NCBI GenBank assembly: GCA_017631385.1
Contig: JAGBTH010000025.1
Span: 1-32,751, forward strand
Direction of reading: 5' to 3'
Source of the DNA: Kiritimatiellia bacterium
GTDB taxonomy: Bacteria; Verrucomicrobiota; Kiritimatiellia; RFP12; UBA1067
DNA: 32,751 nt
Below the pieces are notes generated by a model. That model saw only the letters and a program-made list of their open reading frames with translations, was not told the DNA's origin and searched no databases. The position numbers were made by a program, and so were the translations under genes. Shown piece by piece: positions 10,014-14,540 of this stretch (position 1 is the first letter of the stretch; the number at the start of each line of letters is the position of its first letter).

Positions 10014-11048
10014 TTATGCTTTAAGTTTCTTTAAGGTTAAAAGTAATTTATACATCTCATCAAGCGTACCAATCGTTATACGCAATCTATCACCGGTAAG
10101 AGGTCCTGGGAAATATCGCACAAATATATTGCGCTTACGTAAAGCGTCGAATAAATCCGCCGCCGCCATTCCTTTAGGACGCGCAAAAACGAAGTTAGCT
10201 TCACTAGGTAAAACATCCCAACCTAACTTTTTAAGCTCAGTTACAAACGCTTCACGTGTTTGAACAACCTTTTTAACGGTTTTAGCGTGATACGCGCGAT
10301 CCTTAATAGCAGCTAGCGCTACGGCCTGCGCTATAGCATCGACATTATACGAGTCTTTAATTTTATAAAGAGCTTCGATTAAATCTTTAGGCCCGACACA
10401 ATACCCAACGCGCAATCCCGCTAGAGAATAACTCTTAGAGAATGTACGCATTACGATAATATTATTATTTTTAGGCGCGATCGCTAATTTCATGCAATTT
10501 TCTTTAGCGAAATCGCCATACGCCTCATCAACAATAACAACGCCTTTAAACTTTTTGGCGAAAGCAGATATCTTTTTAGGCGATGTAAATCCACCAGTCG
10601 GTGCATTAGGATTAGTCCATAGAAAAAGCGACGCGTTATCGGGAATATCAATTTTAGCTGATTCTACTGAAGAGCCCACCCATTTTACATCGCGAATCGC
10701 CGCGAGTGTTTTGTATAGAGAATAACTAGGGTCTAACGAAGCTATCATCTCATCATTTTCAACAAACGCCCGCGCCGCAAGAGTAAGAATCTCATCAGAG
10801 CCATTACCTACAAAAACGTTCTCTACCTTTGCTCCATTAATTGATGCAATAGCTTCGCGCAGAGCCATAAATACAGGATCAGGATAACGCCTTAACTTAT
10901 CAAGATCAAAATCCTTTAAAACCTTAGCGCACTTAGGCGAAGGCGGATAGGGATTCTCGTTAGTATTAAGCTTTATAACCGACTTTGACTTCGGCTGTTC
11001 GCCCGGCGTATACGCTTCAAGATTTGCTGTCGCTTTTGTTATTCTCAT
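10014..11048 (-). CDS. hisC: Histidinol-phosphate aminotransferase
   Basis: PLP enzyme converting imidazole acetol phosphate and glutamate to histidinol phosphate in histidine synthesis; relatives also transaminate aromatic acids. The 344-residue protein has the family pattern LNTNENPYPPSP, GNGSDEIL (phosphate binding), TNPNAPTG, VDEAYGDFA, and SKSYSLAGLRVGY with PLP-binding Lys205. The start chosen begins MRITKATANLEAYTPG, which matches the usual N-terminus and has AAAGAAAG upstream; an in-frame ATG nine codons earlier (to 11075) adds MRLLKKVKV, which looks like read-through of the upstream gene. With this start it overlaps the second lipoprotein gene by 32 bp. No other his biosynthesis genes are nearby. 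Confidence 0.93.
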   Translation of the reverse strand: MRITKATANLEAYTPGEQPKSKSVIKLNTNENPYPPSPKCAKVLKDFDLDKLRRYPDPVFMALREAIASINGAKVENVFVGNGSDEILTLAARAFVENDEMIASLDPSYSLYKTLAAIRDVKWVGSSVESAKIDIPDNASLFLWTNPNAPTGGFTSPKKISAFAKKFKGVVIVDEAYGDFAKENCMKLAIAPKNNNIIVMRTFSKSYSLAGLRVGYCVGPKDLIEALYKIKDSYNVDAIAQAVALAAIKDRAYHAKTVKKVVQTREAFVTELKKLGWDVLPSEANFVFARPKGMAAADLFDALRKRNIFVRYFPGPLTGDRLRITIGTLDEMYKLLLTLKKLKA

Positions 11049-11424
11049 CACTTTTACTTTCTTTAGCAGCCTCATCTAGCACTAATTCTGCGCTAGTATG
11101 AATAACGTGGCGCTTCATAAAAAGTATAAAAACGCTCTCGTCATCCCAAAAGCTTTGTAAAGATTTTACAGTCTTAACACCGTATTTTTCGGAAATCTGA
11201 TCTAGGATTTTCAAATTATTTTCAATTGTCGCAGTCTCACAAAAGAATTTTGTCGATACTTGATTGACTTTTTCTGGATTACCCGAAGCTATCGGTATTA
11301 AATTTAAAAAATACCATGAAGAATTAGATACGACTACCATTGTATGATCACCAGCTTGACTATACTCAATAGTTGCACACCCTGAGAAAACAAGTCCCAT
11401 CAATACAGCAAGTATTTTTTTCAT
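11017..11424 (-). CDS. Lipoprotein with VSN..WY motif (second of a tandem pair)
   Basis: A 135-residue predicted lipoprotein: a short basic N-terminus, a hydrophobic core and lipobox FSGC with Cys16 as the lipidation site. The mature part contains VVVSNSSWYFLNLIPIASGN, clearly related to the segment at the same place in the upstream neighbour. The last 25 residues are rich in Lys, Ser, Asp and Glu. It overlaps the upstream lipoprotein gene by 4 bp (ATGA) and overlaps hisC downstream. Function is unknown; the pair probably arose by duplication and sits in the cell envelope. It may match a lipoprotein family found in several PVC genomes, but I cannot name it with confidence. Confidence 0.8.
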   Translation of the reverse strand: MKKILAVLMGLVFSGCATIEYSQAGDHTMVVVSNSSWYFLNLIPIASGNPEKVNQVSTKFFCETATIENNLKILDQISEKYGVKTVKSLQSFWDDESVFILFMKRHVIHTSAELVLDEAAKESKSDENNKSDSKS

Positions 11425-11837
11425 TTCACCTCCTTTTTCGAGGCTAAAACACCACTTAACTGAATTTCTTTATAAGTAAAAATATATGGTAAAGGTATTG
11501 GAATATTCGTTCCTGGAAATTCAAACAATACTGTCTCATGAGTACGATATGAAACACTTACAGGCTTAACATCTTTTTGACCAGCTACATAAGAGAAAAA
11601 GCGACTTTGAATCTTATCCATAGTTACATCATTACGAAAAATGACCCATGGCGTATACCGCTCTTCACAAGCATTACCACTCGCTAGAGGTAGAAAATGA
11701 AAAAGATACCAACCATAATTAGAAACCAGCACATGCTCTTCACCAGTCGTTTGTAAACGCCCTTTTTCAATAGAAAAGCACCCAGTTACTATTATAGTTA
11801 AGAGAACTAAAAAACTAAACTTTATATAACACCACAT
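11421..11837 (-). CDS. Lipoprotein with VSN..WY motif (first of a tandem pair)
   Basis: A 138-residue predicted lipoprotein starting MWCYIKFSFLVLLTIIVTGC, with lipobox VTGC and Cys20. The mature part has VLVSNYGWYLFHFLPLASGN, which shares the VSN..WY....P.ASGN pattern with the next gene. The rest is divergent and includes a Pro-rich stretch (FPGTNIPIPLPYI). It is the first gene after a good -35/-10 pair but has no strong ribosome binding site. The end overlaps the start of the second lipoprotein gene by 4 bp. No function can be assigned; an outer-membrane or periplasmic location is inferred from the lipobox. Confidence 0.8.
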   Translation of the reverse strand: MWCYIKFSFLVLLTIIVTGCFSIEKGRLQTTGEEHVLVSNYGWYLFHFLPLASGNACEERYTPWVIFRNDVTMDKIQSRFFSYVAGQKDVKPVSVSYRTHETVLFEFPGTNIPIPLPYIFTYKEIQLSGVLASKKEVK

Positions 11838-11902: not shown

Positions 11903-11911
11903 ATTATATCA
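11903..11911 (-). promoter_or_regulatory. Second extended -10 element, using the racemase stop codon
   Basis: TGATATAAT again, where TGA is the stop codon of the racemase fusion and TATAAT follows at once. It may be an additional upstream start point for the lipoprotein operon, about 65 bp before its first ATG. Confidence 0.4.
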
Positions 11912-14095
11912 TTCTACTAGAGCGTTCCAAGTTGCACCAAGTGACTCTTTAATAAATGTATTTCTTTTAGCGTCATTAGCGCCATAAGGTACGATTTTAG
12001 TCCAAACTGTATCATCGTTAAGATTACGCCCGTATTTGCATTCGCGGGTAAGATTACCATTCTTATCGAGATATTTCTTATCTAAATTTGGCGAAGGAAC
12101 CGAAATATAAGCTTTAAGGTTCATATTCCCGTTTTTTGAAAGCATTTTCTTTTTAAGAAGATTTAAGTAACATGTTTCCGCCGTCGCCAAAGCTGGGTCG
12201 ACGAAATCCATATTGGGTGATTCCTTTTTTAAATGCGAAAGAACAAATGGATAATGGGTACATCCTAAAATTATAGCTTCTAAAGCTCCCGCATCTTTAA
12301 GCACGGCATACTTAGCTAAAAGCTCTCGAAAATTCTTTACAGCAATTTTCCCCGCCTTAGGATCGCCCGCTTCAACAGCATCAGCGAGCCCCGCGCACCC
12401 CTGAGAGATAACATTAATCTTAGCTTTTATGCCTAATCTCTTCGCTTCCGCTGCAATCGTGCGCTCATACGCGCCGGAGGCGATTGTTCCAGGCGTTGCC
12501 ATAACACCAATAGAAATCGCATCCTCTGCATTGCGGATTTCGTTTAGAGAAAGCGCGCTTAAGACTCCTGCGCCAATTACACCTACAGTATCAACATCTA
12601 CTTTAGATGACCTTTCACTTACACCTTCTAAACCCCACGCTGTAGCTGTATTACACGCGATTACTAAAGCTTTCGCATTATTTTTAAGTAAAAATTCCGC
12701 ATCTGCTAAAATAAGACTTTTTAAATAATCGCTTTTACCAGCTGCCGCATAATCACCATAAGGCATATTGGCCTGATCGCCAAAATAAATGAAACTTTCA
12801 TTTTCAAAATCGGGTCTACCATCGCTATTACGCTCATAAGTGGAATTATTATATAAATCCATCGTAAGCATCTTCTCTAAAACCGTCATTCCGCCAATAC
12901 CAGAATCGAATACACCGATAGGATCATCGGCTTTTACCTTAGTTAAAAAGTCTCGCGCCATTTTAAGCGCCGCGTCAGCGCTATTGGCACATTCAACTTT
13001 AAGTCCATGATATTTAGCAGTTTCAATTGATCTCCCCCAAGCTATTACGCGCCCGCCTCGCGCCATGAATTTCTCAGCTAAAAGTATATTGTCGCCATAA
13101 AGACCTTTTTTCGCCATATCAGGCGCGACATTATGTGGAGCGAGTACGACATCTACTTTATCTAAGCCGCCCTTAGCTACAATATGCCCTACTAAAGGAA
13201 CTATATTAAATTCATTATCTTGTAAAAGTTTTTGAACAAACTTAGTTGTTTTAACGCCCAATGAAAAATCACATACTAAACCAATAGTTTTTAGCTCTTT
13301 ATTAAGAGTAGGCGTTTCCCATTTAACATCACGCCCTGTTACATACTTAATCGCGCTTTTAATAACGCCATGGTCATTAAAGTCCATCTCTGGATGCACT
13401 GTAATCGCAAAAATCTTACCCTTACCATAAGTACAAGCAAAAGCAGCAGGATGACCAGGAAACTGAATCCAAGGTTCTTCACCCATAGATTTAATACTTT
13501 TAGCGTAACTAGCTACAACAACAGTATTTAAGTCTTTTTCTTTAGTTGTTGTTTTAACGGGTACTGGACCTTGGCTATAACGAATTGGCCAAGGGCCGTT
13601 AGCAATTCCAACAATTTCGGTCGCCTTGTCATTAAAGTCAATATCGACATCAGCTTTACCTCCACATACTCCAAACGTATATGGGATAATATCCATCATA
13701 TTCTTATGCTTTTTATCGTCAGATTGCATTAAAACGCAGCATCCAGCGCAAGTTCCTATATATCCACCGCCAGAGCGGATGAACGATTTAACCTTTTCGT
13801 GACCAACTTCGCCGAGCGATTTAGAAATGCGCTGAGAGCTCCCGCCTGGCATAATTAAAAGATCAATATCATCTAGAACGCCTGAACGCACCGCCTCGCC
13901 ATCAATAAATGTAGATGTAATATTTTCCGCAATTGTCGCTATTTGAACCCATCTAAACGCGCCTTCACCGCGTGCACCATTATCAACATAAACGGCAACC
14001 TTTAGAGGTTTAACACATTCGCTAGATTGAGCTAATACACTTCCTGTATAAGCAGTTATAATAACACACACTAACAATTTTAATATTTTTGCCAT
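11909..14095 (-). CDS. Exported BPL_N (amidotransferase-like) - glutamate racemase fusion
   Basis: A 728-residue protein with four parts. Residues 1-22 form a signal peptide (MAKILKLLVCVIITAYTGSV, then LAQ). Residues about 30-255 are a BPL_N/class I amidotransferase-like domain with GTCAGC (Cys116) and HPE (His234, Glu236), a plausible Cys-His-Glu triad. Residues about 265-385 are a second alpha/beta segment I cannot name. Residues about 392-700 are a complete glutamate racemase: GVFDSGIGGM, ACNTAT with Cys481, and GCTHYP with Cys612, so both catalytic cysteines are present. Ordinary MurI is 250-290 residues, cytoplasmic and makes D-Glu for peptidoglycan. The start was chosen because AAGGAAAG lies six bases upstream; an ATG seven codons earlier would put the site inside the gene. 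The catalytic call is strong, the exported location is inferred from the signal peptide. Confidence 0.85.
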   Translation of the reverse strand: MAKILKLLVCVIITAYTGSVLAQSSECVKPLKVAVYVDNGARGEGAFRWVQIATIAENITSTFIDGEAVRSGVLDDIDLLIMPGGSSQRISKSLGEVGHEKVKSFIRSGGGYIGTCAGCCVLMQSDDKKHKNMMDIIPYTFGVCGGKADVDIDFNDKATEIVGIANGPWPIRYSQGPVPVKTTTKEKDLNTVVVASYAKSIKSMGEEPWIQFPGHPAAFACTYGKGKIFAITVHPEMDFNDHGVIKSAIKYVTGRDVKWETPTLNKELKTIGLVCDFSLGVKTTKFVQKLLQDNEFNIVPLVGHIVAKGGLDKVDVVLAPHNVAPDMAKKGLYGDNILLAEKFMARGGRVIAWGRSIETAKYHGLKVECANSADAALKMARDFLTKVKADDPIGVFDSGIGGMTVLEKMLTMDLYNNSTYERNSDGRPDFENESFIYFGDQANMPYGDYAAAGKSDYLKSLILADAEFLLKNNAKALVIACNTATAWGLEGVSERSSKVDVDTVGVIGAGVLSALSLNEIRNAEDAISIGVMATPGTIASGAYERTIAAEAKRLGIKAKINVISQGCAGLADAVEAGDPKAGKIAVKNFRELLAKYAVLKDAGALEAIILGCTHYPFVLSHLKKESPNMDFVDPALATAETCYLNLLKKKMLSKNGNMNLKAYISVPSPNLDKKYLDKNGNLTRECKYGRNLNDDTVWTKIVPYGANDAKRNTFIKESLGATWNALVE

Positions 14096-14147
14096 ATTAT
14101 CTTTCCTTGTTTTCATTTTTCATTAATTCATTATCCTCAACAAAAAA

Positions 14148-14540
14148 CTAATTAAACCCAAGCGCCTTAAAACCATCAATGTCGAAAAACGCCTCGTGCA
14201 TTCCTGTTATCCATCGAATGACAGGAACTCCTGGCAGACTCCGAATCCTATTATTTTCGATCCTTAATGATTTGCGCCAATCATTTTCCATTCTTACAGT
14301 CCAATTTCGGGCATTTATAAAAGTATTATTACGGACAACGAAGTTTTCAGTTATAGCCTTATTTTCATAAAATAAAAGATGTGCGCCGTTTATATCTGGG
14401 CGCTGATCATACCCCCAACCAAAACCTGCATCGCGACATACATCACCGTTAATCGAATCTACATAATACTCTACTGATAGCGAGACTGAAGAAATTAATA
14501 CTATTACACCAGCTAAAATAAATCTAAAACTATTCAACAT
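14148..14540 (-). pseudogene. Remnant of an exported parallel beta-helix protein (internal deletion)
   Basis: An open frame of 130 residues with a signal peptide (about 1-22) followed by YYVDSINGD, which is the usual first strand of large secreted right-handed beta-helix proteins (pectate-lyase fold, 400-700 residues). It then jumps to VCRDAGFGWGYDQRPD and NFVVRNNTFINA, segments typical of late coils in such proteins. The middle coils are missing, so it looks like an in-frame internal deletion that left head and tail joined. It starts 7 bp after the mgtC stop. It may still be expressed as a small exported protein, but an intact beta-helix enzyme is unlikely. Loss of most of the fold is inferred from family layout, not from an alignment. 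Confidence 0.55.

Follow-up and report, generated by a model that had tools for sequence, protein, structure and literature searches.

Glutamate racemase (MurI) is treated as an essential enzyme of the cytoplasm with a single purpose. Outside the cytoplasm, periplasmic broad-spectrum PLP racemases exist, e.g. BsrV. Ordinary MurI is often missing in Planctomycetes or Verrucomicrobia; it is reported to be absent from most PVC bacteria, in which DapF may supply D-Glu (PMC5885031). Glutamate racemase hits are taken up in a 2025 survey of D-amino-acid genes, whose sections concerned do not consider protein location (PMC12363236). Phrase searches of the literature for an exported, secreted, extracellular, or periplasmic glutamate racemase gave nothing relevant, which is weak evidence because subscription papers are thinly covered. 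To our knowledge, the MurI-type racemase and the BPL_N-type hydrolase are the known components of the protein described here, and the exported clade as a movable module is new.

Gene and domain layout of the fusion

The window, i.e. the whole stretch of 32,751 nucleotides that was analyzed, comes from a gut bacterium of the Kiritimatiellia represented by a 2.0-Mb MAG bin of 183 contigs that is 74% complete. Positions 11909-14116 on its minus strand hold an open reading frame of 735 aa counted from the first ATG, with the stop codon at 11909-11911. Translation possibly starts at Met8, an inner ATG at 14095, which the original prediction had taken as the start; its residue numbers equal the present ones minus 7 (i.e. 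Cys481/Cys612 correspond to Cys488/Cys619, and Cys116-His234-Glu236 to Cys123-His241-Glu243). The central observation of that prediction, a single frame combining a signal peptide, a BPL_N-type domain, and a MurI domain, was borne out. It had also known of no described system with this layout; the domain order is not limited to one protein.

A second whole fusion was found in the MAG of another genome (G009; 76% identity over residues 30-735), and a third genome (G025) encodes the N-terminal 210 residues of the fusion at 77% identity, running up to the contig end. The nearest named loci are from Kiritimatiellae MAGs of ruminant guts. A chimera created during metagenome assembly would be in keeping with the fragmented state of the bin, but the second fusion lies in an independent MAG between different flanking genes. 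Because two MAGs hold the whole fusion and a third holds its N-terminal part, we consider an assembly accident hardly conceivable. Between the two whole fusions, dN was 0.12 for the amidotransferase domain, 0.25 for the degenerate copy described below, and 0.18 for the racemase, with saturated dS; from this comparison, all parts are kept by purifying selection.

Directly downstream of the fusion gene, two adjacent small lipoprotein genes (11017-11837, minus strand) resemble paralogues of each other (SNxxWYxxxxxPxASGN). Pfam gave no match for this pair, and the genes flanking the other whole fusion differ from it. A short exported open reading frame, which reads like what is left of a right-handed beta-helix protein, precedes the fusion gene by 31 bases (14148-14540, minus strand).

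The predicted Sec signal peptide (residues 1-29; 14030-14116) reads MAKILKLLVCVIITAYTGSVLA and is followed by QSS, with a VLA/Q cleavage motif. It is followed by a module (residues ~36-270; 13307-14011) that matched Pfam BPL_N (PF09825) with 3e-12 and 46.5 bits against a gathering threshold of 24.2, the best stretch covering only residues 85-126. Its AlphaFold model (pLDDT 92.4) matched PdxT, HisH, and ThuA-like proteins in Foldseek, and PdxT was also found (1.6e-6) when PDB sequences were searched with a profile. The triad proposed in the original prediction is intact, with Cys123 at the nucleophile position (GTCAG; 13748-13750) and His241-Pro-Glu243 (13388-13396) supplying the remaining members. 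Homologous copies keep the cysteine in 27 of 28 cases, and both His and Glu in 27/27 where present. Conservation and model together show, at the level of prediction, a BPL_N-like domain of the class I glutamine amidotransferase fold in which the Cys-His-Glu triad is complete.

The alpha/beta segment that had been left unassigned (residues 274-372; 13001-13297) turned out to be a degenerate repeat of this domain. It aligned with the first half of the BPL_N domain over 89 columns (hhalign probability 98.1, E = 9.4e-14), and its model has the same order of strands and helices. Since the nucleophile elbow GTCAG of the first copy is replaced by AWGRS in the second, the N-terminal module consists of one active-looking and one degenerate copy; the latter probably serves structure or substrate binding.

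An exported clade of MurI-like racemases

The racemase core (residues 397-667; 12116-12928) passed the gathering threshold of Pfam Asp_Glu_race (PF01177; 1.6e-11, 44.8 bits against 31). The NCBIfam model for glutamate racemase (TIGR00067) matched residues 400-666 with 1.5e-31 and 109.7 bits, i.e. below its cut-off of 146.65, and the match to the structure 3out had an E-value of 2.5e-23. The AlphaFold model of the core (pLDDT 96.1, pTM 0.93) found only glutamate racemases as best PDB matches in Foldseek (TM to target ~0.75). The two cysteines, aspartate, and histidine of MurI are all present (Asp404, Cys488, Cys619, and His621). Both catalytic cysteines named in the original prediction, Cys488 in ACNTAT (12653-12655) and Cys619 in GCTH (12260-12262), are found in 83/83 exported and 35/35 ordinary rows of the alignment. 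In the exported rows, Ser405, Pro-Tyr-Gly 452-454, Cys488-Asn-Thr, Thr541, and Cys619-Thr-His are likewise invariant (83/83), Asp404 occurs in 82/83, and position 582 is Glu in 76/83 and Asp in 7/83.

Searches for this clade recovered about 80 relatives from Kiritimatiellae, Verrucomicrobia, Planctomycetes, Bacteroidota, and KSB1; none were present in the viral contigs searched for a viral origin. Three marks set the clade apart from ordinary MurI: (i) an insert after the first helix (residues 420-436; 12809-12859; D-x3-N-x7-DG-x2-D, with D420, N424, D432-G, and D436); (ii) the run GDQANMPYG-x-Y, which places Gln448, Asn450, Met451, and Tyr456 beside the PYG loop; and (iii) a C-terminal extension (residues 668-735; 11912-12115) with Lys694 in 82/83 and Arg697 in 83/83 exported rows, both absent from nearly all ordinary rows. 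The invariance of Gln448-Met451 is partly a search effect, because YFGDQANM was among the search patterns; finds made without patterns also keep GDQANMPYG, and the catalytic cysteines lay outside the patterns.

A maximum-likelihood tree was built from 53 exported and 31 ordinary proteins, most of the latter from the same genomes as the former. In it, a single branch with support of 100/99 separated the two kinds, and the fused racemase did not group with ordinary MurI. The family profile gave the same division in the phylum sample, with 384-525 bits for exported proteins, at most 110 for ordinary ones, and none in between.

The fusion in the other genome retains its signal peptide within otherwise diverged sequence. 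Across the clade, a signal peptide or lipobox was detected in 75 of 78 proteins, compared with 0 of 9 ordinary MurI, by our own simple hydrophobic-core plus cleavage-motif rule, a crude screen rather than a trained predictor; the fusion was positive in it and thus departs from the cytoplasmic, signal-free state of ordinary MurI. Partners joined to the exported racemase include normally extracellular types (glucuronyl esterase, GH5, and GDPD). Export, as originally proposed for the fused racemase, is therefore well supported by these sequence features, and we hold the predicted architecture and export of the fusion with high confidence. Alignment, tree, and model together show the C-terminal module as a predicted MurI-fold racemase of a clade apart from ordinary MurI, with export signals and a full glutamate-racemase active site.

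The genome of the window also encodes an ordinary MurI of 244 aa (G000:C169), which scored 190.8 bits with TIGR00067, above the cut-off, and each of the five further genomes of the genus that carry a full exported copy has one too. The original prediction was to fall with the absence of another murI together with a non-functional signal peptide, or with the loss of the triad in homologues; the second murI was found, and the triad is kept. Because an ordinary murI exists elsewhere in the same genome, the fusion is not the housekeeping enzyme. That it is simply a cytosolic MurI with an extra domain would explain the genuine fold and active site, but the second murI, the signal peptide, and the separate position on the tree make this very improbable.

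The family profile was used to search 39 genomes with an exported copy. About 24 of these also have an ordinary-sized MurI, and the remaining 15 comprise nine Planctomycetota and MAGs of unknown completeness. One Planctomycetaceae group was sampled with 61 genomes around G386; none of them has an ordinary MurI over the cut-off, which is consistent with the published absence and an alternative source of D-glutamate (PMC5885031). A match to either racemase kind was missing from 58 of these 61 genomes. This again speaks against a cytosolic MurI role, and the idea that the exported racemase substitutes for a missing MurI in Planctomycetes was rejected, as most genomes there lack both.

Partners, neighborhoods, and possible function

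Full-length members of the exported clade occur in 6 of the 61 genomes of the genus, in four architectures: (i) alone (G003 and G043); (ii) joined to BPL_N (the genome of the window, G000, and G009); (iii) joined to a glucuronyl-esterase-family domain (G036); and (iv) joined to a VTT/DedA membrane domain (G006; L184, 2894-4774). Outside the genus, the partner is GDPD (L040) or, in Planctomycetes, a GH5-type domain (L078 and L105). The phylum sample contained the clade in 5 of 289 genomes. On the tree, the two BPL_N fusions group together as sister branches, closest to a standalone protein (L007) and the esterase fusion (L035). This position marks the BPL_N fusion as a single recent joining, and the wider find is the exported clade. 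BPL_N is not the essential partner, as close relatives of the racemase module stand alone or are joined to other enzymes.

The racemase module is predicted to act on glutamate, and we consider this rather probable. The fold may instead have been adapted, outside the cell, to a different carboxylic acid (e.g. a sugar acid or an amino acid other than glutamate), with the carbohydrate-active partners, i.e. glucuronyl esterase and GH5, reflecting the substrate. Such a change would fit the family-specific Gln448, Asn450, Met451, and Tyr456 by the PYG loop, Lys694/Arg697 in the extension, and the score below the glutamate racemase cut-off. Against it, no variation is seen at the positions where MurI is expected to contact glutamate, the best structural matches are uniformly glutamate racemases, and the conservation of Gln448-Met451 is partly inflated by the search pattern, although the pattern-free finds share it. 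We regard another substrate as unlikely, yet worth keeping in mind.

Clustering of flanking genes gave no family-wide neighbors of the exported racemase. Only clade-specific partners were found (alanine racemase, a Gate-domain membrane protein, cytidine deaminase, and a HisJ-type phosphatase), and fixed neighbors were therefore rejected as a clue to function. In one Verrucomicrobia clade, the exported racemase gene directly follows an alanine racemase gene at 10 loci, the assignment of the latter resting on TIGR00492 (318 bits) for one of the ten. This arrangement, together with the relative joined to VTT/DedA, a family linked to recycling of the peptidoglycan carrier lipid, would suit an enzyme that serves the cell's own wall by making or removing periplasmic D-glutamate during peptidoglycan remodeling or recycling. 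The patchy occurrence in both the phylum sample and the genus, and the lack of a conserved wall gene adjoining the racemase across the family, argue against this role, which we judge distinctly unlikely.

As a whole, the locus is best explained, tentatively and at somewhat less than even confidence, by an exported two-module scavenging enzyme working in the periplasm or on the cell surface. The first module would hydrolyze an amide, most likely glutamine, a gamma-glutamyl compound, or another glutamate conjugate, and the second would interconvert D- and L-glutamate by two-thiol proton exchange. Glutamate from foreign or own peptidoglycan and from other conjugates would then be taken up and used. 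The complete scheme is possible but doubtful; for the fusion, we infer racemization, substrate, and passage of the product between the modules. That the first domain supplies glutamate to the second is plausible, and this reading is weakened because the partners of the racemase vary among close relatives; as several of them act on carbohydrates, a partner need not feed the racemase. Paired catalytic thiols could form a disulfide in an oxidizing periplasm, which counts against the scheme. The gut is anoxic; other carriers of the exported clade are probably aerobic.

Scavenging is favored because relatives of the BPL_N domain are joined to C26 (L003), M20 (L015), and S41/PD40 (L196) peptidase proteins, and because tandem BPL_N genes lie near AbgT. 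Tandem BPL_N lipoproteins form a further group of relatives (L008-L014). In G014 and G009, the tandem BPL_N gene adjoins a transporter gene of the AbgT family, and in G001 one gene separates the two; they are probably also adjacent in G036, and in G045 they lie about 5 kb apart on one contig. The BPL_N protein encoded near AbgT is a paralogue with about 47% identity, and the 74%-complete genome of the window showed no AbgT. Since AbgT is a broad family and the score lies below the specific cut-offs of NCBIfam, this proximity is a hint at amide-linked glutamate or a similar compound and no more; the names of the AbgT and peptidase families do not fix the substrate.

Several of these loci have features of their own. 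Exported tandem BPL_N lipoprotein genes beside or near an AbgT-family gene were seen in several genomes of the genus, at L190, L236, L237, and L234, the first of which also has a serine ammonia-lyase gene. In the genome of the window, L003 (1408-2958; G000:C49) encodes an exported fusion of a BPL_N domain with a C26 peptidase of the gamma-glutamyl hydrolase-like kind. The 1801-aa protein of L196 (900-6305; G037) has a tricorn-like layout, in which PD40 propeller repeats and an S41 peptidase domain accompany two copies of BPL_N. Another BPL_N relative (L194) had a weak GH42 match.

Significance and comparison with known systems

The coexistence of ordinary MurI with an exported clade whose active site is intact implies that, in some bacteria, D-glutamate may be processed outside the cell. 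This would bear on how peptidoglycan and recalcitrant D-amino acids are turned over in the gut, in freshwater, and in sediment. For annotation and surveys of D-amino-acid genes, a 'glutamate racemase' match in Planctomycetes or Verrucomicrobia may represent the exported kind and not the enzyme of wall synthesis. The chances appear about even that a cofactor-free MurI-type clade has moved outside the cell in several phyla and serves there as an interchangeable module of secreted D-glutamate-handling enzymes, a use for which we found no description.

Among described proteins, the N-terminal module shares the nucleophile elbow GxCxG, the HPE motif, and the overall fold with BPL_N (PF09825), PdxT, HisH, and ThuA. 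It differs from these in being exported, in being followed by a degenerate copy, and in having no synthase partner within the protein. The C26-BPL_N protein of the same genome is likewise an exported cysteine hydrolase of the amidotransferase fold with a BPL_N domain, but its partner is a C26 peptidase, whereas that of the fusion is a racemase. With MurI (TIGR00067; 3out, 1b73, and 2gzm), the exported clade has in common the fold, both catalytic cysteines, the aspartate, histidine, and threonine, the PYG loop, and the GCTH motif. In contrast to MurI, it carries a signal, the insert after the first helix, and the 68-residue C-terminal extension, falls below the TIGR00067 cut-off, and forms a separate clade that coexists with MurI and is joined to other enzymes. 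With racemases of the BsrV type, it shares the predicted action outside the cytoplasm; BsrV, however, has an unrelated PLP fold, whereas the exported clade is of the cofactor-free two-cysteine type.
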